A DNA stretch of 64,000 nucleotides from Paraescarpia echinospica (taxonomy: Eukaryota; Annelida; Polychaeta; Sabellida; Siboglinidae). This document shows, one piece after another, positions 2,197-60,340 of this stretch (within the stretch, counting starts at the first letter, position 1; every line of letters starts with the position of its first letter). The translations under genes were made by a program, and so were the position numbers. Location: NCBI GenBank assembly GCA_020002185.1, contig CM034533.1:48396346-48460345 (forward strand), given 5' to 3'. The notes beneath the pieces were generated by a model, which ran no database searches, had not been told where the DNA came from, and saw nothing but the letters and a program-made list of their open reading frames with translations.

Positions 2197-2286
2197 TGTT
2201 CATGTCAAATATATGACATTTTATTCTTGAACTGAAAAGTCTAATTAATTAAGAATTAATAAATATAATAATTATTGTTAGTCACT

Positions 2287-8894: not shown

Positions 8895-9017
8895 TTAGAA
8901 GTTCTCGTAGAAGTGCTGGAACCTGGTGCATGTGACCTTGGACACGTTGTTGCAAGCGTTCACAATGCTCTTTGTGAGTCCGGCCGGACCACAGCTGAAC
9001 ACACCCACCTTCTTCAC
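8895..9017 (-). CDS. duox: duox exon 33, C-terminus and stop
   Basis: Residues 1482-1521 and the stop, 123 bases. Contains [20 protein letters not shown] with the Cys-Gly NADPH motif, and ends FQHFYENF. The acceptor is TTTCAG. About 17 further copies of this acceptor and the first roughly 28 exon bases lie upstream in 9018-9800. Confidence 0.96.
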   Translation of the reverse strand: MKKVGVFSCGPAGLTKSIVNACNNVSKVTCTRFQHFYENF

Positions 9018-12000
9018 CTGAAACACATCACACAACTGAACACACCCACCTGAAACACAACTGAACACACCCACCTTCTTCACCTGAAACACAACTGAAC
9101 ACACCCACCTTCTTCACCTGAAACACAACACACAACTGAACACACCCACCTTCTTCACCTGAAACACAACTGAACACACCCACCTTCTTCACCTGAAACA
9201 CAACACACAACTGAACACACCCACCTGAAACACAACTGAACACACCCACCTTCTTCCCTGAAACACAACACAACTGAACACACCCACCTTCTTCACCTGA
9301 AACACAACATACAACTGAACACACCCACCTTCTTCACCTGAAACAACACACAACTGAACACACCCACCTGAAACACAACTGAACACACCCACCTTCTTCA
9401 CCTGAAACACAACTGAACACACCCACCTTCTTCACCTGAAACACAACACACAACTGAACACACCCACCTTCTTCACCTGAAACACAACACACAACTGAAC
9501 ACACCCACCTTCTTCCCTGAAACACAACACACAACTGAACACACCCACCTTCTTCACCTGAAACACAACACACAACTGAACACACCCACCTTCTTCACCT
9601 GAAACACAACTGAACACACCCACCTTCTTCACCTGAAACACAACACACAACTGAACACACCCACCTGAAACACAACTGAACACACCCACCTTCTTCACCT
9701 GAAACACAACATACAACTGAACACACCCACCTTCTTCACCTGAAACACAACACACAACTGAACACACCCACCTTCTTCACCTGAAACACAACACACAACG
9801 TCTGAATCTGTCATTACATGAACACAACTTTGGTTTGTTAGGAATTATCTCAGCCTTATTTCTATTTCTCTTCATTGTCATTGAGATGTGTCTCACACAT
9901 ATGAGTACAGTGTTGTGGCAAACTTGTGGAATATTAAATAACCGAACAATGCAGAGTTTCCATTAAACTGATGGCAGGAACATGCTGCTTAGTAACTGAC
10001 TGTAGTGTCACAACACCCAAATCATAATTGTGTGCATCGATGCAACACACATTGGAATGAAACTAACTAAATGCACGGTTGAAATGCCACAGCTCAGCAG
10101 TGGGACAATGCTATTCAACAGGAGAGGCTGGCGACTGACAGGTCTTATTCTTAATATGTCTTTGTTGCCCCTGTAGACGACCGCCCCAGGCAGTGCTGTA
10201 TGTACTCACCTTGGGGTGTTTATTGCTGATTGCCTGGAAGAACATCTCAAAGTTGGGGCGGCCAAAGTGAGTCTTGCCCTTAAGGCCTGTGAACAGACTG
10301 TTGCCTGCCATATTCTGGAAGTGTTCCTCACAGATGTACTGCAACAACACACATCACTCTACAGATGTACTGCAACAACACGCATCACTCTACAGATGTA
10401 CTGCAACAACATGCATCACTCTACAGATGTACTGCAACAACACGCATCACTCTACAGATGTACTGCAACAACACGCATCACTCTACAGATGTACTGCAAC
10501 AATGCGCATCACTACTAAAGATATACTGCAACAACATGCATCACTCTACAGACGTACTGCAACAACAAGCATTACTCTACAGATGTACAGTAACAACACA
10601 TGACACCAGATTATTAGTTTCCTTTTAAGCAACAGACCTTACGTAGGTGCACAAGACTGCCAGGTGTCTACTCACGAGCATGGTGGTGCGCAGGTCAAAG
10701 TTCTGGAAGAGTTGAGTGATGAAGAGATGAGTCTCGACCAGCTCCTTCGTGTCGATGCTCTCAATCTGTCTCAGCACATCCGTCATCCATTCGTAGTGGC
10801 GCTGGTTGCCAGCCACCCACACAAAGTACACCTGCAAACAAAATACACCTATGAATGAATGAAACTTTATTTCAACAACATACATAGTAAAGTAGCTAAT
10901 TACTGAATTATAGATATATACATATATACAATTGTCAAAAAATGGCAGGACGTATGCAAGCGAGACTTGAAGACACTAGACATAGATGTTAAAAACTGGG
11001 AGGATCTTGCTGGAGACCGATCCACATGGACGCAGGAACTACATAGGGGTCTCAAAAGAGGAGAGGATACTCTCCACAGCTAGGCTAGCAGAAGAAAAAC
11101 GCAACCGCAGAAGAAACACCCAGGCTGAGAACAGAGCCGAGAGCGCCCTCAAGTGCAGCATATGCAATAAAGATTGCCACTCAAGAATTGGCCTCGACAG
11201 CCACAACAGACGCTGCCCAGCCAACAACTGATCTTCGACACCAGGGCACAGATCCATAGTTTTACGAGACTGCAGGATGCCTCCTACTGCTATAATCTGA
11301 TTAATGATTATCTTAACCATACTCGCGTTAATATCATTATAATATGTTGTCATTTTTTTTTGAAATTCTAATAATTTCTTGATCATTAACTGGATTTTGA
11401 AACATACTATTCTCTAATCTTTTCCCCAAGTAATCATAAATAGACACATCCCTTACAGTTAATGAAATATGCTTTGCTAGATTTGGGCCGACAGGTGTAA
11501 AAAAAGTATTAAATCCATTTGTTATATCCGTCCTGTCTGTAATGATTTTGTTATTTCTCATAAAATATTCAGGATACGAAAGTGTGTTAAATTGTTTATT
11601 GATTATCCTGTTTAATATTTTCCAGGTTTCCCTGAAATTATTTCTTTGTTTCTCTAGCAATGTGCTGTAGTGGTTTTTCCAGTGAGTCTTAATATTGCTG
11701 TTAACTTATTTTTAAAAGTTATACTTGTGTTCTGCTTCAGCAGATCTGGATAACATAAATGCTTTGTAGTCTTTTTCTTAGCACAAGCACATTTTACGCC
11801 CTTAGTGAACCAAGGTTTAACCCCTTAGTGAACCAAGGTTTAACCCCTTAGTGAACCAAGGTTTAAACCCTTAGTGAACCGAGGCTTATTTTTAATATAA
11901 TGCTTTCTCAAAACTTGTTTTACTGGGCAATGTTTTTTTTAAACATATTAGTAAATATATTTAAGTATTTGTTATAAGTATGATTAACATCATTTGTGTT

Positions 12001-15000
12001 TAGGACAGTATCCCAGGATTGTAAACTTAATTCATTTGATAGTGAAGCCAGTGTGTCTCCAGTTGTCATTCTATTATAGTGAACTTCTTTTAGGACTTTT
12101 CCATTTATGTAGTATTCACACATTGTAAACACTGGTAAATGATCACTAATATCATTGAATAAAATACCACAAGTAAGGTTGTGTTTCAATTAACTGGTCA
12201 GTATATTATCAATTAGTGTGGCTGAGCAGTCTGTTATTCTGGTAGTTTATCAATTAAAGGGTAAAGAACTATACATCAGATCAAGGAAGTTTTTGGTACT
12301 GCTATGATCCTCATGTTTTAACAAATCTATGTTAAACGAAATAAAAACAAGGCATTAGTTAAAATCCGTTTTCCATGTGTACACAAAGTTTAACATTGTA
12401 TGTAACATTCGAGAACATTAAAAAATAAAGAAAAATACATTTGTAGCATAAATTCGATTTTAAACCCGTCTGTGTAGTGATTCCCACGGAAAATAAAAAT
12501 TTTATGAGCTAGGCGATCACGTGGTATCGTAACATCACGTATGACCCACTCTCGCAGCAGGCCGACCCTTTCCATGCATTCATAGCATGTTTACAAGGAT
12601 AGCTTTTGGGTCGAAACGAGCGTCAGAATGAGTTATTGTGCAATATTCCGATGTAATACAAAGACTAGTCATCATAGAGGAACAAGCAGTTATCTTACGG
12701 TTCCACATGAATCCAATTTTATTCAAAACAATGAATGCAAATGAGCCTACAAGTTGACTAGGTATCGCCGAGCTTAAAATTGGGCTCGTTTTCAGAATAA
12801 TTATATCGAATGCAACCAACGGGAGATAATCTACACCAATAAACATACATAGCAAACATATATTGTATCCAGCTACAGAAAGTAACGTGGATAATCTCAT
12901 AATATCACTAGAATATCGATGTATGAAGGAGGAGTTGTACAATTTATCATAACACTTAAATCAGTCAGCGAATTTCTGTCAGTCCTGCTAGCTCAGTTGG
13001 TAAATGCGTTGGTTCCGTGGCATCTACTTTGCAATCGGGCGACGCTGGTTCAATCCTGACACCAAACCATTGATTTTCTTTACACTTTTTTTATGTTTTC
13101 ATGAAGTAACATACACCAAATCATTTTGTATACTATGATGCATTGTTTGTAAATATTTTTGTAGTAATTATTTATTCGCCACAAAAATGAAAATATGGTA
13201 ATTATATAGAACGATGTTTCTAAATGTTATTTATCCAGACAGATCACCATTTGTTTTCACATATATAATTACAATATATTACCATACAATATATATATGC
13301 AATTAATAAATTATATATCCATTACATTATATTTGTTTGGATAAATAAAATGTAGAAACATCGTTATAATTCCCATATTTTAATTTTTGTGGCGAATAAA
13401 TTACTACAATAATTAAAAAATTATTTACAAACAGTGCATCATAGTATAAAAATGATTTGGTTTATATTACTTCGTGAAAACATAAAAAAAGTGTAAAGAA
13501 AATCAATGGTTTGGTGTTGGGATTGAACCGGCGTCGCCCGATTGCAAAATAAATGCCACGGAACCAATGCGTTTACCAACTGAGCTAGCAGGACCGACAG
13601 AAATATGAATTCAAGCATTAGATGTTTTTATTCCCTTTAAGATCACCACACATAAATATTGTTTTCACTGATTTCGCATATATAAAATACTTTCAATGTT
13701 TTCACAAAATATATCTAGATTTGAACCTGGCCTTCTATATATACAATTGACAATAGCATTTTGTAGCCTTTTACAGATAATTCCATAGTAACACATTCAA
13801 AAATCTTTTCTACTACAAATGATTTTGTTTCAATCAGTTTGCATGTTAATTATTTATTTGTGTATATGGCTATACCACCACCCTTTCGGTCTTGTCTGGT
13901 CATGTGACGAGCATTGTAACTATCTATATTAAAGTTATTTATTAAGTCAATTTTTGCCCAGTTTTCAGATATAGCAATTATATTCTACACCTGCAAACAC
14001 AACGTACACCTAGATGCAAAGTACACCTACAGGCACAAAGTACACCTGTAGACACAAAGTACACCTAGATACAAAAATATATATACCTGCAGACACAAAG
14101 TACACCTGCAAACATAAAGTACACCTATAGACACAAAGTACACCTAGATGCAAAGTACACCTTCAAACACTTTTATTTCTATCAGTAACAATATTATCCC
14201 TCAATTCCTGGGGATTTAGGCACTATAGAAGTTTGTCTTTATTATTATTACATGTGGCATTCTGAATCAATCTCATGCGATATTTTCTTTTTATCATATG
14301 CTAGTTACATACTGCATTTCATGCGATACATGTTGTGATGTTGTGATAACGTACCTTGCGACACTTCATGCGATACATGCTGTTGATGGTAGCCATGTGC
14401 ACAAACTCCTTGAGGATGGAGGCATAGGGTGTTACCCCGATGCCGCCCCCGATCAGTATCGTCACCTCGTAGTTGTACCAGTCCTGGTGGCCCGACCCAA
14501 ACGGACCATCAATGTACAGCTGGCAGGAAAGTAATAACAGGTTAGATACAGGCATGCCTCCTTAATGAATATATAAAGATAGGTGAAAGACAAGAGGACA
14601 AGGAAACAGATATCTCATCCAGGCTGACTTACATAGTAAGTAGTAACTTGTGTGTTTGAGTCATGTTGACAACTTAACTCATTTACAGACATCTGAAGCT
14701 GTTTTAAGTTGCACAAGGGGGTCTATTCCCTGAAGTAAGGGGTTCACAAGTTTGGGGTAGGGATCAAAACTTTGGAGTAGGAGGATCCATACAGTATGGG
14801 GTATTTACCTTGGGGTAGGGGGCTGGTGTTTGAAAAAAGCTGACTACAAGTATCGGTAGTTGAATGAGACCTCATAAGACCATAACATTGTAACCACAAT
14901 ATATACAGACAGTCAGTTAATAAAGCGTTGCCAAGCGCTAGAAACAACTAGAAACTGTTTACCTTGGGGTAGGGGTTCCCGTCCTGGTTCTGAGGGTCGG

Positions 15001-21000: not shown

Positions 21001-24000
21001 ATAATTATTGATATTGGCTAACAGTTTTTTAAGTTGAACGTGACAGGGCCAAAACTTGCTAAAATATGCTTTTAGTTTAAATTTACTTACCTTATGGTTG
21101 AATTCTTTACAAATTATATAATATTAAAAGTTACCTATTCAAAATAATTATGCTGTAATTGAACATTAGACGAAAGATAAATTTTGAAAGTAAACATTAT
21201 GCCCCGCCCCCTAGCGACCATTATTTATTCAAGATTTTGGGTGCAGCTACTGATGCAGCATGTTTGCCAAAGTAATTGTTTAAGACGACTATGCAGCAAC
21301 CGTACTACAAAATGACAATTTTATCAGGGATGTAACTTAAATGTTGTCCTGTAATTTTTCTAATCAACTCACATAGTTAATTACTTTAAAACAAATAACG
21401 TTCCATAGTTACACTGTAACTTGATACACTGTAACTGATAACTTCTATTGCGCCAAAATCCTTGGAAATCAAGCTCAGAGGTGCATCAAAACAAAAGGAT
21501 TGGTCAATCTCAAAATCCATAAGCAGTATTACAGTTGTCAATAGATGGGTCAAGGCGCTAGGGAGCTACGGTGGATAAGCAAGGTTGTAAAGATAAGTTT
21601 TTAAATGAAGACAGTATTTTGTAATATTTTTAACTGCCAAGACATCAGCTGTCAGTATAATACAAATTATATGATCAATAGCACAGAGTATGCAATTCAT
21701 TATAAATGTTTGTATTTATTTAGCTTTACTATACGTAGTAATATAATAAAACTAGTAGTAAAAACATTATCTTCATAACCACGTTTTTGGACCATCAGAA
21801 CCAAAGCTTTGTTGATGAACACAGTGATTAGAAGTAACACTTTTGCTCACCAGATGGCAGTTGCTCCATGCGGATGATGGTGAGTTCGCGTTTGCGTCGA
21901 CTGAGAGAGACGATCTTGTCGAGCGTGAATAAGATGGCGGGTCCAGCAAAGTAGTAGGAGAAGTTTGGCTCCTGGAGCAGTCTGACACAGCCGTGGAGCA
22001 GGGTGAGCACGTAGAGCAGGTAGAAGAGCTTGTGAGACACCCAGAAAGCATTGAAGATGTACGTCCGCACCAGCGGCTGCGCGAAGATGTACATCACGCA
22101 GATGACAGCGATCAGGAGGACCCCCGTCGCACCTACAACATGACACAGACGACAGCTACAACATGATACAGACGACAGCTACAACATGACAGCTACAACA
22201 TGATACAGACGACAGCTACAACATGACACAGATGACAGCTACAACATGACACAGATGACAGCTACAACACGACACAGACGACAGCTACAATACGACACAG
22301 ATGACAGCTACATGACACAGATGACAGCTACAACATGACATAGACGACTGCTAAAACATGACACAGAGGACATCTACAATATGACACAGACGACTGCTAT
22401 AACATGACACAGACGACAGCTACAACATGACAGACGACAGCTATAACATGACACAGACGTCAGCTACAACATGACACAGACGACAGCTATAAGCAGCACT
22501 CGCACCTGTAACATGGCATCAGACACCTGGGTTGTAGTAGTAGTATATATATATATATTGTTTTGTTCATACAATTATGCTACAACATTTCAACTATACA
22601 TACAAATATTTGTATTGCAACATGTACATTCAATTAAAACAATGTCTACACCGTTCATAAAACAGTGAGCAATGAGAGAAACTCGTCTGAGTAAAAAAGA
22701 AGTGCCACTCGCATTCTCTATATCTACAACCCATGTTTGTTTGATGACTATAAAGCACAGCAGGATTACGATTTAAATACAGTTTATACACACTTAATCA
22801 GAACCTGCAACAGAGCATTTTCCTTGACTTTCAGATTGAACAATTCATTATGTACAAAAAATTGACAAAATGTTGCCCACAAATACCACACTGAGAATCT
22901 AAACATGTCATTCTTTTGACCTAAGGAGTGCCCATTACAAGGTGCCCTAATAAAGACAGTGAAGTACACACCTTGTAGCGTGCCAAACAGCCAGTAGTGG
23001 AACTTGGGCAGGAACGTGGAGCTGAGAAACAACAGACAAGTCACTTGATGAAAACATTCACTACATTTAAACAACTGTAATCATAGGACTATTCAAATGA
23101 TTAAGGGGAGGCTCGGGTCGAAATTTACGGATTTTTGAAAATAAAATGAGTTTTGAGTTATTGACATTTCTATGTATAAAAATTACTCAACTTCCCATTC
23201 ATATACGTTATACTACCGAAATAAACCTGTTTATGTCACAAAACATGCATTTTGTGTGATGCCTATCATTGCTAAGTCTTTGTTTTTGTCAAACGAAGCA
23301 TGAATAATCGTACATTATGCAATTTTTCACGATTGATTGCATCGCCCAAAATACTGCCATTCCATCGTGGCGCATATCACGGGAAAGCCCTGTTTTCGCT
23401 CTGCATGAAGATATAAACTATTTTAAGATGGCACCGCTGCTGCCTGAATAATCCAGCTTATAAACGACTGCCTCTCTTGCCACTTCGGGGACAAAGGAAT
23501 GGGTAACTCTACAACGATTGGTCAGGCAGCATCACGTGATGACGGAATCCTCTGATTCCGTCAAGTCAAATGTTCTGATTGGTTGTAATACGTCCAACCT
23601 ATGACGTCAGCTTGTAATACCAGCTACATTCGATAGGATTGACATTTTATTCTCCGCGTTTCTTTACACTTACACTTACAGGTTAATGGGCTGATTTAGG
23701 CCATTGGCCTTTGTTGGTGCCCGTATCCCAGGCTATTCCAGTGTTTGTCGAGTCTGGCCTTAAACTGTGTGACGGTCTTGGCATCTACCACATATTGTGG
23801 GAGCTTGTTCCACTGCTCTAACTGAGAAGTAATTTTGTCTGACCAGCAGTCTTGTTCTTTGCTTGAAAAGCTTTCTCGTGTGTCCTCGTGTTGCTGTACT
23901 GTCTGTTTGGTAGAAAGTGAGTGAGTGGTTTCCGTGCTGCAAAGCGACGCAATATTGCGTAGCTGCAGCACGTGAAAGAAAGGCTACGCAAGTTGAATTT

Positions 24001-39000: not shown

Positions 39001-42000
39001 CAGATCATGTCTTTTGTAGGTATGCACCATGCTCCAATAGGACACGTCAGACTTACGAGGTCGTGTTCCTTGGGTACCCGTATCAGGAGAATGTTGTTTT
39101 GTTTGTCATTACTCATCCACACATCAGCGTTGCCGCTCTCAGGGGCAAACTTAATGACCCTTGGGATGTGGTGGTTGCCATAGGTCACCACCAGGGTGCA
39201 CTGCAGGATGTCGAGGTGCAACTCGATGGGCGTCTGTTTGTCCTTGCTGATCCACTCGAGGGCTGTACAGAGTACAAATCACCTTTATATAGTGGAACCT
39301 CCTTTATATGAACACTGTGACCCCAGTGCATGTGTCAGGATTGATGGACTTTCCATATAAACAAATCATTCACATAATGGTGTTTATTGTCGTTTGAAAA
39401 AATCTGTTCCTATGAATTGATACCAAGATTCAGTCATTCTGCTGTTTACAAATTAAGGAAACTTAATTGGAAAAAAACAAAAATTCTTTTAAGATATGTC
39501 ATGAAGAGGTTTAGCTCAAATGTTTGCAGTCTTTCAGAATGTTTCTTTGACAGTCTATAATACATCTCAGTCATAACTGTGCTCTACACTTGTGCATTCA
39601 AAGTGTAGTCCAGGTTACCAGCCATGTGTGCCAAAGTTTGTGACTTGTCAAACAGACTGTTGTAGATAATAAGAAAGCGACATACAGAAAGTGACTGCTA
39701 GCAATGCCCCCACTGACACACACACAGAGGGTGGGGACACTTACCCTCAATGTCCCCAGGAGCAGTAGGTGTCCTCTTGACAGCCATCTTGGACTGGTAG
39801 AGTTTTGTCTCTCTCTTGATCTTGTACTTTTTATATTTGGCAATCAGATAGACAACCAGAATGCAAACTGCAATGACAACACAACTACACTGTTAACATT
39901 CACCCAGTGTTGGTTCGCCCTCTTGTCTGTGGCTGCTGTAGAGGACAGTGGAGCAAAAGCATCATTAGTAGACATGATAGCATGTCACATTTTAAACTTA
40001 TGTATTCAAAATATTCATATAACACAAAGTACGTTATGAAGAATGAATCAAGAACTGTGAAACATTCCTTTCATAATTATGAACACATTTTGTAAATAAA
40101 AAGAAAAACAACTGAAAACGAATTACTGGGAATGTCAATGTTAAACTCCTTCTTGTGCTACTGATTTATATGAATGATTCACGAGGGATGTTTGTGAATA
40201 TTCTTTCTTTGACAAGTTGTCTTTAATTCATAGGACAACTTGAGCTTAGCTCAACATCCATTAAATCTGAGAAGGATTAGTGGAATTATGTGACTAGTTA
40301 ATTTCTGTAGAGATATCTCAAGCAGTGAGATCAACTGATGGTTGGTCTGTAAGGGTGTCTAGCTGAATGGGGTTGGGATGATTCAAAGTGAATGGATAGC
40401 TACTGCACAACAAAGCCTACTGTGTGTTATACTCACTGAAGGGCAGGAGTCCTACGGCGGTAAGCGAGCCAATGTAGGAGACTTCACTGCCAGAGAAGAA
40501 GTTGTAGCGTGTGTACTCTGTGCATTCATTCATGTCTCCCTCCTCCAGCTGCTTATGCTGCTCACACGGGTCACCTGTCAACATAACACCTGTCACATCA
40601 GTCACCTGTCAACACAACACCTGTCACATGAGTCACCTGTCAACACAACACCTGTCACATGAGTCACCTGTCAACACAACACCTGTCACATGAGTCACCT
40701 GTCACATGAGTCACCTGTCAACACAACACCTGTCACATGAGTCACCTGTCAACATAACACCTGTCACATGAGTCACCTGTCAACACAACACTTGTCACAT
40801 GGGTCACCTGTCAACACAACACCTGTCACACACATCGCCTGTCAACACACGTGACACCTGTCAACAAAACACCTGTCAACACATGGGTAACCTGTCAACA
40901 CACGTGTCACCTGTCAACACACCTGTCATACGGATCACCTGTTATCACACGGGTCACCATGAACACAAACAGATCACCTGTCAACAGATGTGTCACCTGT
41001 CAACACAGGCGTCACCTGTCAAAACACCTCTAACTGGCACACGAGTCACAACACACCTCTACCTGCAGCCTTAGTAAGGTTCTCTGTGTCACCATAATAT
41101 GAAATATAATATGTCGCCATGATACAAAAGAATAGTTTAAATACTGTAGCAGTACTTTTCCACTGCACCTACTCACAAACACTTGTTGTAAATAGCTATG
41201 GTTGCTAATCACCGTTCTGCAGTTTCCCAATAGTAAAACGTAACTTATATTACATACAATTGCTTTCAATTTGTTCAAAAGGTGGATCATATCACTATCT
41301 ATCTACACGTGTCAGTAACAGCACCCACTGTAAGCTATCTATCTACACGTGTCAGTAACAGCACCCACTAAAAGCTATCTATCTATACGTGTTAGTAACA
41401 GCACCCACTGAAAGCTATCTATCTACACGTGTCAGTAACAGCACCCACTAAAAGCTATCTATCTATACGTGTTAGTAACAGCACCCACTGAAAGCTATAT
41501 ATCTACACGTGTCAGTAACAGCACCCACTAAAAGCTATCTATCTATACGTGTTAGTAACAGCACCCACTGAAAGCTATCTATCTACACGTGTCAGTAACA
41601 GCACCCACTGAAAGCTATCTATCTACACGTGTCAGTAACAGCACCCACTGAAAGCTATCTATCTACACGTGTCAGTAACAGCACCCACTGAAAGCTATCT
41701 ATCTACACGTGTCAGTAACAGCACCCACTGAAAGCTATCTATCTACACATGTCAGTAACAGCACCCACTGAAAGCTATATATCTACACGTGTCAGTAACA
41801 GCACCCACTGAAAGCTATCTATCTACACGTGTCAGTAACAGCACCCACTGAAAGCTATATATCTACATGTGTCAGTAACAGCACCCACTGAAAGCTACAT
41901 ATCTACACGTGTCAGTAACAGCACCCACTGAAAGCTATCTATCTACACGTGTCAGTAACAGCACCCACCGAAAGCTATCTATCTACATGTGTCAGTAACA

Positions 42001-45000
42001 GCACCCACTGAAAGCTATCTATCTACACATGTCAGTAACAGCACCCACTGAAAGCTATATATCTACATGTGTCAGTAACAGCACCCACTGAAAGCTATCT
42101 ATCTACATGTGTCAATAACAGCACCCACTGAAAGCTATTCATCTCTCCATGTTATTCCATGCCCATTGTACATAACAGTGACACCCTAAGAACTGCACCC
42201 ATCAGTAATACTTGGCCAGGCCCTGGTCTATCTTGATTCTGGTGGTTAGAATGTATAATTTAATTCAGTATGAAAATATTATTTCCTACAGTGTGAGAAT
42301 TATATTTTGCCACAATGCCAGTTTTCGTAGATAAACAATGAGACCTTGGTTCCAGAAGAAGACATCACTCTGGAAGTCGTGTTGTGGCAGGTCTGTCGCC
42401 GCCCGGATCACGTCACTGAACTTGGTTGACTTGACATCAGCCACCTCCGCATCAGATAGCAGCCTGCAACACCACTGGGGGATGAACTCACACACATAAA
42501 TGCATGTACATGATGACACTATAACCAGTATTGTATTTATACTGTACAAGTGAAGTAATCACGGTCTCATTTAGTTAATTTCTGCATTTAATAAGTAGAA
42601 GTGATACTTTTATATTAACATTGTACTATCCATTTAAAATTATACCTAGACCCTTTCCTATCACAAAACAGGTCTGGGTCATTGTACGCATTCTAATAAG
42701 TCAAATAACTTTACATAATCTGTACTCTACGGAAATATTCAACATCTACGGCTGCAAATTGAATAAACTTACCACTTGTTTTGTGTCTGTTCAACGTTAA
42801 CCTGTTCATGTAAGAGTGAACTTAGTTTTATTATTAACAAACCCAAAATCTCTAGTTTCAAGCACATAAGTGGCAATACACATGACAGAAGCACCCATAC
42901 ATAGCTGCGCATTCAGCATTATGAATTACACAAACCAGGAATGAACCTGGACTGGTGTAATAACACTACTGCTATACTAACTTGTTTTCCTTGTTTTCAA
43001 ACCAGAACCTGTCTGCATCTCTGATGCGTTGGAACTGCTCCAGGATGACTGCAGTGAAGAGTGGACCCGGGGTGCCATTGGTCATCTCTAGCAGACCACC
43101 CACGTAGATGTCCAACAGAGAGATGTTTTTGTAGGTGTCGGCCAGCTTTTTTATCACCTTCAGTCCGACCAAACAACCACATACATCTTTTATCACTTAC
43201 ACGGCCCGAACAGAAACCTAAACATCAACCTCAATGTGGCTTCAGAGAAATTGTTTTCTAAACAGGAACACTGGTAGTTAAAAAATAATATTATTGAACC
43301 TGAACCTAATCTAGCTATAAATTATTCAGTGTTAAGACGATAACAGTATTTGACTATTTCATTATATTTATTATAAGAAGGTAAGTTCTTACTCTGTGCA
43401 GTATTCATCCAGTCCTTTCAAATACTCAAATCACTTTACACTTCACCCCCTTCTCCTTCTGACAGCAACCTGACTTCTTTAAGAAACATTCAGCCACACT
43501 TAAAATATTGCACAAAGACTACTGATTCATATCTATTCAGCGTCTATAGCCAGGTATTCATTCAAGCAACGTTGGGTGCATGCACAAAATTGCCCAAGTC
43601 TCAAAAAGACAGCAAGAGGATTCGACCCCAGTCCTGTTAAAAAGACAGAAAGAGGATTCGACCCCAGTCCTGTTAAAAAGACAGCAAGAGGATTCAACCC
43701 CTTTCCTGTTAAAAACAATGCAAGAGAATTGTACTGTTAAAAAGGTTAAAGTTCTTAAATAGTGCAGTATCCAGTCCTCAGGACTGCTCAAAGCGCTTTA
43801 CACTTTACTCCCTGGCAGACCTGTTCAATTGAACACCGTCTCGACTTTTCTGGGAAACATCCAGCCACGCTGCAATTAATGCGCAAAGAATACTTGTACA
43901 CACATGTCCACCACTGTCTATAGCCAGGTGCTCATTCATACATAGTGAATTGGAGCAATGTAGAGTGAATGAACTTGCCCAAGGCTTGACACCGCAGCAC
44001 AGGATTCGAACCCGGGTTCTCTTGGCGCTCCTGTTAATTGAGTCTCATGTTCTCTGCTACGGCACCCCATTTTGAGGGTGTATGAACCTACTCGCACTTA
44101 TATTTGTCACTGTGAATTAGATAACCAGGTGCGGTGTATGAATGAGGGTGACTGACCTCAGGGTTGCTGTCGTGGAGAGTGGGGTTGATATCTCTCCAGG
44201 TGTCCAGAGGGGGAAGGTGGAAGGCCTTCCTCGCCGTGTTGTAGTCAGGCAGACCATGGTCTCTTCCCCGCATGATGGTCTGCACGACAAGGTCCTGGCG
44301 CGAGTACTGCAGTGGACCATAGCTTCTACCTGCAATCAGAGAAGTACTTTACATACAGGTGTAAGAAAGTACTGCAGGGACAAGTTTCTACCTGCAATCA
44401 GATATGTACTTTACATACAGGTGTAAGAAAGTACTGCAGGGACAAGTTTCTACCTGCAATCAGAGATGTACTTTACATACAGGTGTAAGAAAGTACTACA
44501 GGGACAAGTTTCTACCTGCAATCAGAGATGTACTTTACATACAGGTGTAAGAAAGTACTGCAGGGGACCATAGTTTCTTCCTGCAATCAGAGATGTACTT
44601 TACATACAGGTGTAAGAAACTACTGCAGGGGACCGTAGTTTCAACCTGCAATCAGAGATGTATTTTACATACAGGTATAAGAAAGTACTGCAGGGACCAT
44701 AGTTTCTACCTGCAATCAGAGATGTACTTTACATACAGGTGTAAGAAAGTACTGCAGGGGACCATAGTTTCTACCTGCAATCAGAGATGTACTTTACATA
44801 CAGGTGTAAGTAAGTACTGCAGGGACCATAGTTTTTACCTGCAATCAGAGAAGTACTTTACATACATGTGTAAGAAAGTGCTGCAGGGGACCATAGTTTC
44901 TACCTGCAATCAGAGAAGTACTTTACATACAGGTGTAAGAAACTACTGCAGGGGACCGTAGTTTCAACCTGCAATCAGAGATGTATTTTACATACAGGTA

Positions 45001-48000
45001 TAAGAAAGTACTGCAGGGACCATAGTTTCTACCTGCAATCAGAGATGTACTTTACATACAGGTGTAAGAAAGTACTGCAGGGGACCATAGTTTCTACCTG
45101 CAATCAGAGATGTACTTTACATACAGGTGTAAGTAAGTACTGCAGGGACCATAGTTTCTACCTGCAATCAGAGATGTACTTTACATACAGGTGTAAGAAA
45201 GTACTGCAGGGGACCATTGTTTCTACCTGCAATCAGAGATGTACTTTACATACAGGTGTAAGTAAGTACTGCAGGGACCATAGTTTTTAGCTGCAATCAG
45301 AGAAGTACTTTACATACAGGTGTAAGAAAGTGCTGCAGTGGACCATAGTTTCTACCTGCAATCAGAGATGTACTTTATGTACAGGTGTAAGAAAGTACTG
45401 CAGGGGACCACAGTTTCTACCTGCAACCAGAGATGTACTTTACATACAGATGTAAAAAAGTACAGTGCAAGACTCTTATAATGAACACAGATACAATGAA
45501 TTGACGGATGTAACAAAACAATTTGTTACGTACAGATTTTGTCCCTATATTTTCCATTATAAGCATTCACGCATACAACGAACACGGGTATATCGAATTC
45601 ACGGTTATTACGAACACCTTTTTTCGAACAAATTTCGCTGTGTAATGAATTACTGTCCAACTGAAAATCACCCGGTTGTTCGTAAATACTTGCCATGCCA
45701 TGGCCACGCAGAGCGCCAGTGCCAAAGTAATTAGGTCAATGAGGGAAATCATTCGTAACAGGGCTACGCAATCAGACGACGCTGCAGTCACTGCAACTGG
45801 CTTGAGAATTTAATTTTGTCTGGTGCCCTTGCCAACAGCAAACAAATACAACTGTCAAGGGACTCAAGCTTCAGGAAAGAATGAGCATGAATTTGTTAAT
45901 GACGAGAAGAAGGGATGTAATCAGAATATAATAATGTCGGTGTTGTGTGTTACTGGTGTAGGCACCGGAACAATTTACTACTACGATGTCAGTAAACACT
46001 TAAAAGCTGACAGACGAAAACAACACCAAATAAACCTCGGTATCATGAATATATATACTTGTCCACTGTATCTCCAGAGTGCAGATCATAAAATGTAATG
46101 TTATCAATTCAAATCGTAACAGTTAGGCACCATTCCAAGCACCATTGTTTGGTGCGACGGACACACTGTTCTAAAAAATGTGTTTTAATGTTAGTTTTAA
46201 AAACAATATCCATCTTTGACCAGTTAAAGCCATATTTGCATAAAATATGCTGTTTTTCAACAATAAATCACTCGCACTGTTAATGTACATTGGCGTTTGC
46301 ACGATTTACTCACGTCCTTAATACTGCCAAAACTCCCTTATAAGGCTAGCCATGACTGGATAGCTATCCACGGCCGTATTTATGACCTGTGCATACATTA
46401 ACTTCATCCGGTCTACATGCATACGGACCCTGGTTTATAAGTACATTACAAATGTTAAGATTTTAATGACATGCCAGTGTCCATAAATTGTGCAACTGTA
46501 CATAATCAGTTACATTTTTATGTATACAGCTGTATATTAATCAGTCTGCATTTTGTACAATAAAAGGTAATCGTGTTAATCCAGATAAAAATAACCTCCA
46601 AATCCAGACATCATTTCACAGTCAAGTCAACACTACTATACCCCTGCTTTCAGGTGTTTATAAAAACCACATGACAAATACACTGGGGCCGAAGTGCCCA
46701 CTTTAAAACAATCAAAAACTTAGCAGGCTATGGTCAGTTGTTAGTTAGGATTATACAAAACCAGTAATACTGGCAGTAGATATATACATGTGGCAGCACT
46801 AGCATCATGAACTTGTTAATCTCTCACCCCTGAGATCATCCACAATGATGTGATCTTCTCGTTCTGCAATCTGCGATGCCATTCCTCGGATAATGTCCTT
46901 CAGACCATATTTCTTCACCATTTCCTAAATGTAAGAAAAATAATTTTACCTATTATGTTAGAACAGTTAACAAAACATCTACAGTATAAATATTGTGTTA
47001 GTGAATGCAAATAATACCTTAAACTGCAAACAGAATTCAGTTCAAATACAGCGTGTATGTGGAAACAAATTAATATACCCAAAATGTATGTTTACATGCA
47101 TACTTGTACATTGTATAACATGCAGACCTGTGCACCTGATCTCACAGCTCTCGGTATCCTCAAAGCTATGTTCAGTATTCCTGACTAACTTCCAGTAACA
47201 CTTTCAATGTGAAAAACAAACACTTGCATAATATTCACAGGCAAACTCGAATAACTTTTCCCGTCCATCGTTATCGTCGAAATGGCGAACCGTTCCCGCG
47301 GGTTAAGATTTTTGTTGAATGTTCGTTACGGGCCTAACGTGAATTGCACTTGGCCCGATAATACAGGTATTCAATGCGTAGCATGCACATCAGATCGTTT
47401 TTAGCTATTAGTGGATAAATGCAAACTTATCCGAAAGGTGGCGCCACATATTCCACAAGAAAAAAATTCCTGTATTTTGGGACCAGCAATTCTGTAACAA
47501 AACTAACAAATACGGAAGAATATGGAGGGTGCACAGGTCTCAACATGATAACATAATAAGCACTATTCATCTAAGCATGAAACCGACAACAAAGAAATAG
47601 GAAAATTATATGAATATTAATTACTAGACTTGCCTGTGATCTGAAGTATGCGTTACACATGCGAATAGCTTTGCCAGAACGACATCGATAGAAGCTGCAG
47701 TTACTGCCTCTGTTTCAAACAAACATGCGTAACAGCAAAGGAGTATTCCAATTCAGAGATACCTTTCTAATCTAAAATAATATAACTTTTTTAAATTCAC
47801 TGAACATGCAAATTTTAATTGTTGATAATGTTACTTAGATAATGCATGTGTGTCACTGTGTGCGTGTGTGTGCGTGTGTATGCGTGTGTGTGTATCAATT
47901 GTATGAGTTCCTTAAGTTCGTTTTTCTTATTTATTAACATGGTCAAATAATCAAATAAATTTATTTTGCAACAACAGCAACATAAGTCATAACAGTAGAC

Positions 48001-51000
48001 GTACACAAAACAACCGTTTACAAATTTAAGTTGTGTTGAATGGTGGTCACATGGCATGTTATATGCCGTCTTCCTGTGACCCCATAAGTGGCATAACCAT
48101 ATATTTCGAATTATATTTACACATATGTATACGATGTATGGTCTCGGACTGATTCATGTGACACGCAAACAATTTACATAGCGTAGATAGAACCCACGAT
48201 TTTTGATGCAGGCGTCTTCGACGAGATTTGGATTTCGCCGGTATATTTTTGTAAGTACTTCACTCAAAACAAGTTTGTTTGCAGAAATTGGAATGAATAT
48301 GTGTTAGAGATTTAGCACATAAATATCTTATGGAATAATGTGATTAGGTTTTAGTAAAAATGGCGAAACACAATTGGACCCACAATTATTGCCCACACCA
48401 ATATACTAAAAATAAAGCTTAGCCTTAGTAGCACGAATTTACGCCCATTTGATTTATCCATTTTAGTTTCTAGGACGTCTTGACTTGGGCAAGCAAGTGT
48501 CACGTCTTGCTCGATGGGAGAAGTGTCAAATCACGATTAACAAGCGATTAAAAACGCCAAAAACGTAACCAGTTCGAGAACATACCTAACGTAGATCCCG
48601 GGCGGTATTTGCGTGTGGTAGGTACGGATAGCAGCAGCTTCGAAGATGGCGCTCATTGACGGCTGCAGGTGCGAGTTGTAGCCTTCGTAGACGTAGCAGA
48701 CGACAAACGTACATCAGATAAAACCACCAAAACAGCTTTGTTTGTCAAATATATAAAATATTAACCCAATCACTAAGAGCAGCAAACAGAAATGCTTACA
48801 AATTCCACATCTGAATTTGTATGAATAGTCTATATTTAAAAAAAATAACCCCTGAAAACCAAACAAGTGATTTTTTTTATTTTGGTTCGAATATATTCAT
48901 ATTGTACGCTAGATGGCGTGCATATTGCAGTTGTCAATTTCCAGCGCCCCGCTAGGTGTCGCCATTCAAGCAGCCGATTGTCGTTGCAGAACCAGCGATA
49001 TTTTTAAAACGGCTCGTCGCACCCGAAGGCGCCAGCGATGCATATCGAATAAAACATCTAGAATGCCGATAACAGTAGCATGTGTAGAGTCACTTTTACA
49101 CAACAACCTCCACTGTATTTCCTTCACGGTTTTACGGCACTACACACATTGCGCACATCAATGAAGCAACTTGCTTACCTTTATATTCCGTTAGATGGCG
49201 ACCCAACAACGCTGGTAAGTATTCGTACGCGATGATATTCTGAAGCAGAAATTAAAACGTTCATGCAAAGTTCGCTTTGATAGGAGCCCCTTTCATGAAT
49301 ATAAACAAGTACGATCAACATTGCCACATGCCTACATACATGCGCACCCGTGTCCACACGTGCACGCACACACACGCGCACAAACACGCGCACATGCTCG
49401 ACAATGACGTGTCACCTGCATGACGGCAATGACGTGTCACCTGCTTGACGGCAATGACGTATTGTTGCAGGACGGCAAAGACGTGTTACTTGGATGACGG
49501 CTATGACGTCTCACCTGCAAGACGGCAATGACTTCTCACCTGCATGACGGCAATGACTTCTCACCTGCATGACGGCTATGACGTCTCACCTGCAAGACGG
49601 CAATGACTTCTCACCTGCATGACGGCAATGACTTCTCAACTGCATGACGGCTATGACGTCTCACCTGCATGACCGCAATTACTTCTCACCTGCATGACCG
49701 CAATGACTTCTCACCTGCATGACGGCAATGACTTCTCAACTGCATGACGGCTATGACGTCTCACTTGCATGACCGCAATGACTTCTCACCTGCATGACCG
49801 CAATGACTTCTCACCTGCATGACGGCAATGACGTCTCACCTGCATGACGGCTATGACGTCTCACCTGCATGCCGGCAATGACATCTCACCTGCATGACGG
49901 CTATGACGTCTCACCTGCATGACGGCTATGACGTGTCACCTGCTTGACGGCTATGACTTCTCACCTGCATGCTGGCAATGACTTCTCACCTGCATGACCG
50001 CAATGACTTCTCACCTGCATGACGGCAATGACTTCTCACCTGCATGACCGCAATGACTTCTCACCTGCATGACGGCAATGACTTCTCACCTGCATGATGG
50101 CTATGACGTCTCACCTGCATGCCGGCAATGACTTCTCACCTGCATGACCGCAATGACTTCTCACCTGCATGACGGCAATGACGTCTCACCTGCATGACGG
50201 CAATGACGTCTCACCTGCATGACGGCAATGACGTGGCGACGCGCGGCCTGGAAGATCTGCTCATCCTTCCACTGTTCGTTGCCCCAGCGCTCATCCCCCT
50301 TGGCAGGGTGACTGTTCATTATTCGGGCGGCCACATGGTTGTGGTAGCGGAACCATACGAGGGCTATGGCCATCAGACCTGGGTTCTGGTGCGTGTGCGC
50401 GTCGCCAAATCCTGGCGTCGAACACAAACGTAGCATTCAAACGACGTTCACCCCGACAGAGTGGCATGTGGTCTAAGCTGGAGAGCATCGCAAGGTAGTT
50501 TTACCATACATTACCAAGAGTAATGTCTATACTATAATGATTAGATAGACGAATTAATTACCCATAGTCCGGTGATAATACCGAATTTCAGAAATGTTCC
50601 CGTTTCCTACATTAGTTAACGCTGGCAGTAGTCCATAGTTCGGACATTTCGTCTGGGCTGATGTGTTTGGAAAACTGGTTTTGTGTGAATGATTTGTTAA
50701 GGGGAACGTTAAAACATTCATTTGAAAGTACTTAAAATATATGTTTAATTTGTTAATTGACCAGCTGTTAATACAAACAATATCATATAGAAAGCCCGAG
50801 TAAGTAGAGATTTGGCGGGATTTCGAGGGGTGTGGTGAACGAGAACGATGGCTAAGGTGGATGTATGGATAGAGACGGCAGTGTGACGTCATCGGCAGAA
50901 GGAGATCAAAAAGAAGTATCAAGGACATCCTCAGTAATCATGGACTAGCCGGACAGAGAGGAGAACAACGATAACACCGTAGGGAACTTACCCCACTGTT

Positions 51001-54000
51001 TCTCTGGCTGCATCTTCTCGTGACTGACGGGGTCTGGCAGGTTATCGAGGGGTAGCCCCAGGTGGTTGTAGCCGGGGTAGTAGCCGAGGTGGTCGATGGT
51101 GAGGAGAAGGCCGCCCGTGAACTTCCGCAGACAGTTGCACCAGACTTCGCCTCGCCCGTACACGAAGCTGCCGTCTATCCAGCTGCTCGCCCGGTTGATC
51201 TAGCGACAGAGGCACGCACGGTACACATGGCGACAGTTCACGAAACTATTCAACAGCGGACGAAGTTTCACGAAACTATCAGATGTCGAATAACATACGA
51301 AGCAATCTTACAAAAATCGAAGTTTCTCTAAACAGAAGACGTGGGCGAACGGTTCACGCGCCTTTCTCATAGAACAAGACGATTCACAGAATTATCTATA
51401 GAAAACAAGTAAAACAGTGTTATGCAACTGCTGTGGAGGAATCTAGGATAGAGACTGTCACTCACCGGACGTCGAGGATTGTTGGGAGACAGTCCGGTGT
51501 CGCGGTTGTAGGCTGACCGCACGAAGGGCATGTAGTCCTCCTTGTCCCCGTCCGACCCGAACTGGGAGTCGTTCTTGGGCACCGGCACCTTGACCATCTC
51601 GAGTGGACACATCCCATCAGTGGCGTCAGCCACCTCATACGACACCATCTGACCTGTCGATGACCAGTCACGTGGTAGAGTCGTAGACAGTAAATTACAT
51701 GGCTGACGGTCCCGTGACGGAACCCAATCGGACGTGATTCGTCCATATATTTAATTTTACTTGAGCCCATCGGCGTTCTTTAATAACTAACAGTATATTG
51801 CTTTGAATTCGATTAACAAAGATCATCAAAGTACTAAAAAGCGCTAACAATCACCTGAGTCGGCTACCTGATGGTGACTGCACAGCGTGAACAACGACTA
51901 GTGGAAACGTCTGCCGGCACTATGTGTAGTGCATGGACCCGGCACTATGTGTAGTGCACGGGCCCACACAACTCGTAGTAATCATAATTGCATTAAATAG
52001 TATTATTAATAAATTCACCGTTTCGGTTTATTACTGCTATTTTAGTAGATGTGAAAGAAACAGACGTATGTGAAAACGTGACTTCAAGCGATGTCACGGG
52101 TGAGGGTGTGGCAAAGGTTTTCTACCTGTTTGAGGGGTAACCGCCCACCCCACTTCCTGCCACATCCCGCCCTCCAGAGACTTGATTTGCACGTTGCGGT
52201 CATTGAGTTGATAGTTGGAGTATTTCTATAATGTTTTGTATGATTTCTTAAAAATTATACTGGCACATTGTTTTCGTTTGTTTTATAAAACTACTTCAAA
52301 CTGTATCGAATTTCATCCTAGCCTCTCCATGCATTGTTTGATCGCTTCGATGGAATCTCCAGATAGCTTTTTTTTATCCGCTTCTGTTCGTCTCGAGTAG
52401 CAGATAAATTGTTTGAATCTTTATGACATGTCACGTTTGAAGTATAATTATATCGTCTGAATACGTCGTATACAAATAGGCAGTCTTACACAATTATCAT
52501 TTCAAGCGTTTTGAAATGAAATATTGCTTTGAGCTTGTTATGCTCTATAATGTTCATAACAACCAGCTGTTTCATTTTTATTGATATCAGTTCTAAACAT
52601 ATGCCAAACTTGGCTCTCTGTGCGTGATGTGATCGCTTTGATGCTATCTTCAGTGATGCTTGTTTCTTTTGTATTGTTATCTGCCTTTGTTCGTCGCGAG
52701 CAGCGGTTAGATCTTTTCTTATCGGTAGGTATCATGTTTCACGGAACTACAGTCATCTAACGTTTGAATATCTCATATAACTATAGGCAGTGATTTCTTT
52801 TCAAGTCTTGACTTTACATTGTCCTGCGTTGATTCCCATCAGCTATCTCCGTCTGAAGCTCATTGGATAGGTAATGACTGGGTAGCACCCTATTGTATTG
52901 GCGTGAATTCCCCCACACCCCTAATGTACAGTGACTCCCAACTGCTCCCACCCACACCTACACCCTCCCACCGTCGCTGTCACGACAACCACCTCACACA
53001 CGCTGTCACGTACACCATTTTACAATCGCTGTCACGAACACCATGTCTAAGTTGTCACAAATACTAATGAACACCGTCTTACAAACAAATTGACAATTGT
53101 TAAGTTTGTGTTTTAAATTTCAATCGTGAATAAACCATATTGTATCAAAAAGCAACACGCAGACTACCTACTAAAACTACTCCTCTCAAATTCAAAACTA
53201 CCAACTATGGACAATACAAATAAAGGTCGGTCAATAGGTGGGTAACTCAACCTTAGTTTGTGTTTGTTTTTACCGAAGAATGCAAACAAGGCGGCGTGGT
53301 TTGTTCTTACCGAAAAATGCAAACAAGGCGATGTGGTTTGTTCTTACCGAAAAATGCAAACAAGGCGGCGTGGTTTGTTCTTACCAAAGGATGCAAACAA
53401 GGCGGCGTGGTGTGTTCTTACCGAAGAATGCAAACAAGGCGATGTGGTTTGTTCTTACCGAAGAATGCAAACAAGGCGGCGTGGTTTGTTCTTACCGAAA
53501 AATGCAAACAAGGCGATGTGGTTTGTTCTTACCGAAAAATGCAAACAAGGCGGTATGGTTTGTTCTTACCAAAGGATGCAAACAAGGCGGCGTGTGTGGT
53601 GTGTTCTTACCGAAGAATGCAAACAAGGCGGCGTGGCGTGGTTTGTTCTTACCGAAGAATGCAAACAAGGCGGTGTGGTTTGTTCAGAATGCAAATAAGG
53701 CGGTGTGGTTTGTTCTTACCGAAGAATGCAAACAAGGCGCCGTGGTGTGGTTTGTTCTTACCGAAGAATGCAAACAAGGCGGTGTGGTTTGTTCTTAACG
53801 AAAAATGCAAACAAGCGGTGTGGTTTGTTCTTACCGAAGAATGCAAACAAGGCGTTATGGTTTGTTCTTACCGAAGAATGCAAACAAGGCGGTGTGGTTT
53901 GTTCTTACCGAAGAATGCAAACAAGGCGGTGTGATTTGTTCTTACCGAAGAATGCAAACAAGGCGTTGTGGTTTGTTCTTACCAAAGATTGCAAATAAAG

Positions 54001-57000
54001 CGGTGTGGTTTGTTCTTACCGAAGAATGCAAACAAGGCGGTGTGGTTTGTTCTTACCGAAGAATGCAAACAAGGCGTTGTGGTTTGTTCTTACCAAAGAA
54101 TGCAAACAACGCGGTGTGGTTTGTTCTTACCGAAGAATGCAAACAAGGCGGTGCGGTTTGTTCTTACCGAAGAATGCAAACAAGGCGGTGTGGTTTGTTT
54201 TTACCGAAGAATGCAAACAAGGCGGTGTGGTTGCGGTAGGAGGCTCGACCCGAGAGCCCGTTGAAGATGTTGTTGCTGACGACCCGGGGATTGGGACGGT
54301 CGACTCCCGCCAGCTGGTACGTCATGTCACTGTAAGCCGGAGCCACGTTGAAGAAGATATCCTCGCCTGGTAAGTACAGGAGACACTCTAAATGAGGTTA
54401 TACTTGGCGTATATCACTGGTAGCAATGCTCGCGGTATAGACATGGGTCTACCCCTTCTCGGACATTCACTGGTGCGCCTCAAGCGCATATGAACAGGCT
54501 ATAGAAGATTCAAACACAACATGAACGAGACACGGCTAGCACCATCAGCTTCGTGAGAATGCGGTGCCGAAAGGCAGACCGCACTCCATATCACCAGTGA
54601 GTGTCCGCTACACAAATGCAACGGCGATCTGGTCATGCTGGACAAAACAGCACGAGACGACCCACCTGAATCATGCGCAGAAAGAAGACAACGTCAACCC
54701 TCGGTCACAGGCGTGCTATGTTAATACAACTATTCCAAACTGACAATTATTAATAATAAAAAATATAAATATAGAAGTAAATAAACACAATTTGATGGTC
54801 ATATCTGATTGGATGCGAACCTTTGTCAATGTGTACACTCTGCACTATACTGAGCACAAAAAAGAACCGCAAATGTTTTACCATCAGTTTTTTGTTGCGA
54901 ACCAATACATTTTTTGTACTTTTGTCAACGCAACAAGGGGGTAGTTACGTATATGGTGTCCGAATAGGTCGAACATATTGCGCTGAGTGCATGTGTGATT
55001 CACGGCTCAGTCCAGTTAGTTCAGGTTTTAAAGTTGCATTCTGAATTAAACTATCAATTTTAACTGTTTTTTTTAAGAAAGTGTATATACAGCATGAACA
55101 ACATTTGTTACTTATTTTATCCTACTTGCTACCATACCACGGTCGCATCACGTTTTTCGTAGGCGGTGTAGTTTGAGGACCAAATAGCTTTCTGGTTTGC
55201 GCCTGTCTGTGCCACAACGGCCGTGCGTTACAGCGCGCGCCGCACGCTTGAATTGAACGACACAACAGTGCATATTTGTGCAAACCGGAGCGCTCTTTGA
55301 GCCTCAAAAGTGCGCTAAGACGCAGTATTTTTTGTAACGTTATATGCCTGAAATGATGATGAATGATGGAATTAACGCATTGAGGTATAAAATCTAGGCA
55401 CAATATGCTGTATATATATATATATATATATAATCATAGACGACAAAATCGAGGTGCGCCTGAATTGTACACAAGTACAGACCGGCATAGTCGCAAATGT
55501 GTCGTATCAAAACCAAGTTAAGCAACATCGTCAAAACGTTCTTTCAACTCTCTCACCCGATGAGACAGAGCACAGTGAGCCGAGACACGCGAGTTGTTGT
55601 GTTGTTAAGACGTCCATAAATATAGAGAAAGGTTAGACCACTTGCGTGCACAGAAGTTGTATTCACACATCGTTACAGACCGACCAGTGAATAGCAGACG
55701 GCTCTTTCTTTGAAATCATAAATAGGCTTTCATTCAAAGGCATTTCTATTTTAAAAAATGGCTGACACAAATTTGCCAGCTCCATGGGACCACGAACAAC
55801 GGAATTCCAAGCATATAATAAGCCTTAAGGCGGGCTTTCTATTGGTTCTGTTACAAATAAGTTAGTCTGTTAAAGGTCCATCGAACTCTCTCTACACATT
55901 TTGTTATTAAAAACAAAATGCATCGATATTTGTGAGGCAGAATTTCATAGACGCTAGTACATTCTTCAATTAAATGTCCAATCATTGAGCCGTTTGGGTT
56001 TGCATTTTATTAGATACCGGCGTCTGGAACCACTGATTCGGTTACGGCGATTCTGAAAGACCTAGTGGCAAAATATGAAACAATGTCTTACCTGCAGCGC
56101 CCCACGACGGATTGCCAAGGTTGTTGAACCAACCGTCGAAGCGTTGTCGCATGTCATGCGCCGTAGTGTGAGGGGCTGAAACAAATAAAGAAACAAATAA
56201 CCTCACAAAGAAATGAAAAAAATCGTGTACATTTAGCGAACTTTTCCGCTCACAGAGAACTAAAATAAATCTTTTTAATAATAATAACAACAGCAACAAT
56301 AAAACGCCAATTTATGTAAAGAATCCAAACAACATTTCTGTCCACTCAAATTAATCGTTTCATTTGCAGAAAACTATCTACGAAATATCGAACGAATCAC
56401 ATTGTTCAAATTAATTAGTTTAATAGATATAATAATAAAATTATTAATTAATTTCTTTGTTTTTATTCTTGATACACGTGCAACTATTATTGTCATTTGG
56501 ATGAGCCCATCCTCTCGATGCACGGATGGTAGTCGACCTAGTGCTGTACTAGGCCCTACACTGTACTCCTGGCAATCAGCCTACATCATGAAGGCGCCCA
56601 TGAAATTTCGCCGAATCAGTTGTGATTCACCCCACTTGCATTTTTTTTTCGGTTTTAATTGTGCGAACCAGGCGCGAGAGAGCTATTCGAAAAAAATCAC
56701 CATAATAATCCGCCAGGCTTTCCTTATGCCGCCTTCCGATGATGTACCAGTGAAGGTTATTGGCGAGCATCGGGTGAAATTGTAGGGTCTCGGCCCTCCT
56801 AGACTATGCTGTCTGGATCCGCCCCTGGGAGACATGTGTTCCAGGCATTGCGGTGTATCCAACAGTGGAAGGATCGAGAGGTTGGAGAGTCCCGAGGAGT
56901 CTGTGACGTCATCGATGTACTGATGATGAGCTGAGTGATTGTGCCATGCACTTACCGTGTAGAATGCAGATTGCTGTGAGGACAGCAAAGCAGACTTGCC

Positions 57001-59262: not shown

Positions 59263-60340
59263 GTCATGCCCCAGTTAGACTTCCTCTTTCGTTACAGGAT
59301 AATTACAAAATTAAATATTGCACAGTGTTTGAGATAGGAGTGTTTCTAAAATATGCTAATTTCAATGTTTTTCTTCAAAATCACCATGTCTATTTTGGGT
59401 CATGCCCCAGTTAAACTTCCTCTTTCGTTACAGGATGAATTACAAAATAAAATATCGCAGTGTTTGAGATAGGAGTGCCTCTAAAATATGCTAATTTCAA
59501 TGTTTTTCTCCAAAATTACCATGTCTTTTTTGGGTCATAGCCCAGTTAAACTTCCTCTTTCGTTACAGGATGAATTACAAAATAAAATATTGCACAGTGT
59601 TTGAGATAGGAGTGCCTCTAAAATATGCTAGTTACAATGTTTTTCTCCAAAATCATCATGCCATTTAAAAAAAAAATAATTCACGTGCTCTGACATAAGC
59701 TCATCTGAGTAGGCAAATTTTAAGGTGTGATTATAGAAACTGTTGACAGTAAAATGGTGCATTTTTAGCTGTTTTTACTAAGTGGGTGGATATTTGGCAG
59801 CAATTTGGCTATTTGACCCTTTAGCCGGAGTATTGCCTGCACAAATTTTGTAAATATTGATGTCTATTTTGTGTCAAGCCCCAGTTACACTTCCTCTTTC
59901 GTTACAGGATGAATGACAAAATTATATATCGCACAGTGTTTTAGATAGGAGTACCTCTAACATAGGCTAATTTCAATGTTTTTCTCCAAAATTACCATGT
60001 CTGTTTTGGGTCATGCCCAGTTAAACATCCTCTTTCGTTACAGGATGAATTGCAAAATAAAATATTGCACAGTGTTTGAGATAGGAGTGCCTCTAAATAT
60101 GCTAGTTACAATGTTTTTCTCCAAAATCATCATGCCATTTTTATATACAATTCACATGCTCTGTCATAAGCTCATCTGAGTAGGCAAATTTCAAGGTGTG
60201 ATTGTAGAAACTGTTGACCGTAAAATGGTGCATTTTTAGCTGATTTTACTAAGTGGGTGGATATTTGGCAGCAATTTGGCTAATTGACCCTTTAGCTGGA
60301 GTATTGCCTGCACCCATTCGTAAATATTGACGGGTGTCAT
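59263..60340. repeat. Nested tandem duplications, ~135 and ~474 bases
   Basis: A segment starting CAGTTAAACTTCCTCTTTCG recurs at about 59270, 59408, 59541, 59881 and 60018. Superimposed is a larger duplication: the block including TAAGCTCATCTGAGTAGGCA is present at about 59697 and again 474 bases later. No coding similarity. Confidence 0.9.

Follow-up and report, generated by a model that had tools for sequence, protein, structure and literature searches.

Splice-junction minisatellite arrays in a dual oxidase gene of the annelid Paraescarpia echinospica

Minisatellites that incorporate a splice junction, known as 'mirage' minisatellites, have been described in the amphioxus globin genes BflGb6 and BflGb9, in a study that also cites Adh3 and two other loci and, in the part of its text available, gives a unit range of about 10 to 160 bp, homogenisation of clusters with the boundary units left out, and allele instability (PMC3087553). 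Lancelet PGBD5 carries repeats of 60 and 108 bp, in two to seven copies, that overlap or abut the splice sites of two exons, and the available portion of that report mentions troponin C and Adh as well (PMC3902484). Partial exons with splice sites are also noted in amphioxus VCBP3 introns, with data not shown there (PMC2632668, available in part). Here we describe a far denser case: a dual oxidase gene in a 64,000-nucleotide stretch of the Paraescarpia echinospica genome (assembly GCA_020002185.1, contig CM034533.1, positions 48,396,346 to 48,460,345), hereafter the window, has ten tandem arrays whose unit contains one of its own splice junctions. Ten such arrays in one gene suggest that splice junctions favour them, and we consider it likely that they are mirage-type arrays, derived from splice junctions, that had an advantage in growth or persistence over the other arrays in the same introns.

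The dual oxidase gene runs along the minus strand from about 56.2 to 8.9 kb: exon pieces match the solved DUOX1 structure (printed E value 0; 6.2e-177 for the C-terminal part), and the spliced model joins animal haem peroxidase, EF-hand, ferric reductase, FAD-binding and NAD-binding domains in one chain, the combination that identifies a dual oxidase. Exons 2 to 33 were set by open frames, splice signals and matching phases, giving 32 exons, 31 introns with 42,761 intron bases, and a single open frame of 1505 residues, which shows only that the exon-proximal sites fit together. Exon 1 was not found in the window. Three donors, those of exons 9, 13 and 14, are weak and were placed with less certainty; none of them has an array.

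8896..56175, minus strand: dual oxidase gene, exons 2 to 33 (DUOX1 match, domains and open frame)

The arrays occupy ten different introns, four at donors and six at acceptors, so that either boundary of an exon can be affected. By our reading of the units, all ten include both exon and intron edge, the feature that defines mirages, and their lengths, 19 to 64 bp, fall within the published range; about 9 to 50 bases of a unit are exonic.

53262..54232, minus strand: exon 3 donor array, 37-bp unit (25 exon and 12 intron bases), 26 copies; exon end 54205
49402..50232, minus strand: exon 6 donor array, 25-bp unit (19 exon and 6 intron bases), 33 copies; exon end 50215
44303..45463, minus strand: exon 11 acceptor array, unit of about 64 bp (about 27 exon bases), 18 copies; exon start 44329
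40562..41027, minus strand: exon 14 acceptor array, unit of about 31 bp (about 13 exon bases), 15 copies; exon start 40574
35321..36832, minus strand: exon 19 donor array, 55-bp unit (about 50 exon bases), 28 copies; exon end 36799
26205..27600, minus strand: exon 25 donor array, unit of about 33 bp, 3 copies adjoining the exon (end 27567) and 16 past an insertion
22133..22520, minus strand: exon 28 acceptor array, 23-bp inner unit, 19 copies
13986..14170, minus strand: exon 31 acceptor array, 19-bp unit (12 exon and 7 intron bases), 10 copies
10330..10599, minus strand: exon 32 acceptor array, 31-bp unit (9 exon and 22 intron bases), 9 copies; exon start 10338
8990..9799, minus strand: exon 33 acceptor array, unit of about 36 bp (28 exon bases), 22 copies; exon start 9017

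A first-pass annotation made from the letters alone had named these ten donors and acceptors, and every array was found where it had been placed. It had reported exon and intron edge together in nine units with 9 to about 47 exon bases; both edges are indeed present, in ten units and with the slightly wider range given above. Its four intron-only arrays without a match to exon edges become six with at least five copies, plus 15 smaller ones.

Compared with the globin mirages, the available text of PMC3087553 describes the same concerted evolution within clusters, exclusion of boundary copies and intact coding sequence, but only three to six units or single duplicates, whereas here one gene has ten arrays of about 9 to 33 copies. 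PGBD5 shares the position of its repeats and differs in its few copies and two junctions (PMC3902484), and VCBP3 shares exon-piece copies with canonical splice sites in neighbouring introns that are not described, in the part available, as tandem arrays on the junction (PMC2632668). Intron gain by tandem genomic duplication likewise involves within-gene tandem duplication of splice signals, but a new intron arises there, according to the available part of PMC4974935, whereas in this gene it is existing junctions that have multiplied, with no new intron seen.

That the exons came first and the arrays were derived from them follows from the protein, as the repeated exon edges at all ten junctions encode residues that can be aligned to DUOX1. 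Two arrays retain further traces of their history. At exon 3, GGTAAAAACAAAC is restricted to two places, the exon edge and the copy at the far end, whereas GGTAAGAACAAAC is found in 19 copies; at exon 19, GTTGTGCTCTTCTCTAAAGGTAACT is likewise confined to the exon edge and the far-end copy, and another form is present in 23 inner copies. A single founding duplication with later growth of the inner copies would leave such a pattern. A systematic word test found it clearly in these two arrays. In exon 11 the match lies close to the far end, at 0.9 of the way along, in exon 14 the result is mixed (0.38, 0.51, 0.84) and in exon 25 the match is away from the end (0.75); the test found nothing in exons 6, 28, 32 and 33, and exon 31 is uninformative owing to its insertion. 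The exon 28 unit is a shortened derivative; a longer exon-like piece is kept in the far-end copy, which at 22507 retains AGGTGCGA, resembling the exon start at 22132; just an 8-base word is common to exon edge and far end.

Whether junctions are favoured was judged by where arrays start. Tandem Repeats Finder returned 106 rows in the window, which were merged by hand, after the sequence had been seen, into 31 arrays, with only those rows kept that lie in introns between exons 2 and 33: the ten junctional arrays, six intron-only arrays with at least five copies and 15 smaller ones. One of the small arrays lies inside the exon 25 insertion, another (14740-14781) adjoins a relic at exon 29 described below and was counted as non-junctional, and for the array at 15700-16039 the copy number after merging, 6.2, was set by hand. 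Under the null model used here, duplications start evenly over introns and junctions, and the share spanning a junction is set by unit length. The ten junctional arrays compare with 1.83 expected among all 31 arrays (P = 5.7e-6), 1.35 among the 21 with at least three copies (P = 1.6e-7) and 1.12 among the 16 with at least five (P = 1.1e-8), these P values assuming independent arrays. When the 16 finished arrays were instead dropped randomly into introns, a mean of 0.38 and a maximum of 5 fell within 10 bp of an exon in 20,000 trials.

Array size adds a second signal. Junctional arrays account for 10/16 of those with at least five copies and 0/15 of the smaller ones (Fisher P = 2.5e-4), or 1/15 if the exon 29 relic is counted. 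The earlier opinion that chance placement is implausible is borne out under the even-start model (ten seen against 1.1 to 1.8 expected, P from 6e-6 to 1e-8). The same annotation had left a choice between birth at junctions and loss elsewhere; the junction origin stands, and the size contrast shifts the weight from birth towards biased growth or persistence.

This contrast also bears on two other explanations. Junctions may be hot spots for the first duplication, for example through splicing-linked breaks or RNA–DNA hybrids, with ordinary growth afterwards; the excess of junctional arrays (10/31 against 1.8 expected) and the involvement of both donors and acceptors would fit, but small or two-copy junction duplications should then be common, and there are none among the 15 small arrays and one relic among the other junctions. 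Moreover, unit GC skew takes both signs and is negative in 4/10 arrays, which argues against a simple R-loop with a G-rich coding strand and, to that extent, against the RNA–DNA hybrid cause that had been proposed at first. We regard this explanation as unlikely, if the best placed of the alternatives. Less probable still is passive survivorship, in which arrays originate evenly and those at junctions are merely shielded from deletion on their exon side: the scarcity of small junction arrays is consistent with it, but by our estimate one-sided shielding gives at most about a twofold excess, whereas ten arrays are seen and one to two expected.

The relic itself is probably an eleventh junction case. 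It lies 154 bp downstream of the exon 29 donor, with degenerate copies, recognised by eye, further on.

14730..14830, minus strand: probable exon 29 donor relic, an exact 18-base copy (13 exon and 5 intron bases) at 14808

Outside the ten arrays, blastn of the 62 junctions returned only this relic and one distant 14-base match, of the exon 17 acceptor to 51854. Exon 28 was missed both by blastn and by a scan for repeated 24-mers because its inner copies have lost the first exon bases of the true junction.

Two arrays, those of exons 25 and 31, are separated in whole or in part from their exons. The exon 25 array is in two pieces; the exon 31 array stands 3.1 kb from its exon, with one more copy adjoining the exon itself (start 10831). 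Both gaps look like mobile insertions, so the two arrays were probably once continuous with their exons.

26785..27485, no strand assigned: insertion of about 700 bp in the exon 25 array, with terminal inverted repeats (GGCCAGACAC...CAGG) and TTAA on both sides
10851..13985, minus strand: insertion of about 3.1 kb in the exon 31 array, with AGGTGTA on both sides

AGGTGTA is also present inside every unit of the exon 31 array and is therefore weaker as a target duplication than it appears. We take the larger insertion to be retrotransposon-like; no Pfam domain was found in four of its frames. The TTAA-flanked element appears to have a similar copy in intron 17 (about 37600-38300), seen by eye in translated frames. 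That these arrays are an assembly artefact is very improbable: the sequence comes from a single assembly and copy numbers could be wrong, but copies differ in ordered ways, two arrays are cut by insertions, and for the globin mirages RT-PCR and trace data are given in the available text (PMC3087553).

The arrays surround the real splice sites with many decoys. GT or AG is kept in 188/199 aligned junction copies, real sites included (acceptor AG in 90/93). Splicing to 178 of the 179 decoys that have an intact GT or AG would cause a frameshift or introduce a stop, the sole exception being at exon 33; random inserts of such length would mostly also break the frame. By the scores of a simple, approximate matrix entered by hand, the decoys that equal or exceed their real site number 121 of about 180, summed over arrays, 23 of them at the exon 3 donor. 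Strength of this kind therefore cannot choose the site, from which we infer that closeness to the exon must matter.

Since spare copies keep their signals so often, arrays might arise evenly and be retained because additional sites aid exon recognition or buffer mutation. This we judge the least probable of the biological alternatives. GT and AG show no clear excess of conservation over the rest of the unit, using nearly any decoy would break the frame, and the real sites that bear arrays are not plainly weaker than others: with the same approximate matrix, and no formal test, the donors score -0.0, 6.7, 4.6 and 1.5 against a median of 3.5, and the acceptors 2.8, 0.2, 2.3, 3.5, -0.4 and 1.4 against 2.5. 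We likewise set aside arrays as compensation for weak sites, on these scores, and arrays as a source of protein variants, on the frame counts. Treating the intron-only arrays as cryptic splice sites fared no better: measured against random intron pieces, the best donor and acceptor scores of their six units fall at percentiles 0.25 to 0.97, with no clear excess, and probes made from the gene's 62 junctions picked up none of them.

Several intron-only arrays have features of their own. The one at 27908-29854 in intron 24 repeats a 23-bp unit about 85 times, the most copies of any array in the window, without an exon-edge match, and has stretches open on the plus strand of up to 321 codons. At 31555-32289, an acceptor-like TTACAG is present in the 30-bp units of the far part but absent from the 20-bp units of the part nearer exon 23, as though the unit had shed or acquired a segment. 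Two arrays in intron 28 (15700-16039 and 19715-20420) are AT-rich and built of short CTATAG-type palindromic pieces, unlike the others. Beyond the gene, the window has a reverse transcriptase fragment downstream (1977-2204, minus strand; Pfam RVT_1, E 3.3e-7) and, upstream, a tandem duplication at 59386-60330 with a 471-bp period and two copies about 92% alike.

Taken together, the data suggest the following course for the arrays that we favour as junction-derived and biased in growth or persistence. A short stretch across a working splice junction would have been duplicated in tandem, an origin that the repeated sequence itself attests, and inner copies would then have multiplied, presumably through slippage or unequal exchange. 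The copy touching the exon would remain the real splice site and, one exception aside, the sole copy keeping the frame open, so that an array would be tolerable provided that the spliceosome uses the site next to the exon, as it presumably does. Finally, arrays containing a junction would grow or last longer than other intron arrays. As to the cause, we tentatively suggest a growth bias that acts on the DNA itself and is linked to transcribed splice junctions, such as polymerase or fork stalling at exon edges.

Some observations weigh against this account. First, the case is one gene in one assembly, with arrays merged by hand after the sequence was seen, and nothing in these data points directly to the cause of the bias. 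Second, 9 to 10/62 junctions have at least one further copy of their 24-mer, compared with 30 to 33% of 8046 positions sampled in intron interiors, arrays included (and 0 to 3/396 exon-interior positions). That junctions show no excess of repetition over introns is because arrays, with the whole exon 25 span counted, occupy 13,818 of the 42,761 intron bases; the placement signal concerns where arrays start, not coverage, and we reject the plain claim that junctions are repeated more than introns, which the 24-mer counts do not bear out. Third, apart from those of exons 3 and 19, most arrays lack the end-copy pattern or show it unclearly. Fourth, percent match is 72-93 in junctional arrays and 80-98 in the six large intron-only ones (P = 0.16), hence no significant age difference, and AG and GT rank at a mean of 0.72 (acceptors) and 0.51 (donors) in conservation among unit positions, not clearly better than the others. 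Finally, copy similarity shows no consistent trend with distance. Re-seeding from the constrained exon copy, which predicts similarity falling with distance, was rejected because correlations across 10 array pieces are of mixed sign (rho -0.76, P = 0.017, for exon 32; rho +0.66, P = 0.005, for the distant piece of exon 25; no significant correlation in the remaining eight).

As far as our searches show, the arrays themselves are of the known mirage kind and what is new is their density and the seed test; set beside the globin work (PMC3087553), this gene adds a test of placement against even origin. Among the matches listed, with subscription journals mostly outside the coverage, there was no genome-wide mirage study and no report of mirages in duox.

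The finding turns a single-gene curiosity into a measured bias: about one-third of all arrays in this gene, and most of the large ones, grew from junctions. It is possible, though we put it forward with reserve, that junctions act across the genome of this lineage as engines of satellite growth, with their position in transcription and splicing driving or protecting the expansion of a duplicated junction. If so, introns would fill with decoys and the spliceosome would have to rank sites by their closeness to the exon. A genome-wide pattern would link splicing or transcription to satellite formation, offer a natural experiment on how the spliceosome recognises a real site among its many copies, and supply raw material for new introns and for shifted exon edges, the latter already proposed for globins in the available part of PMC3087553.

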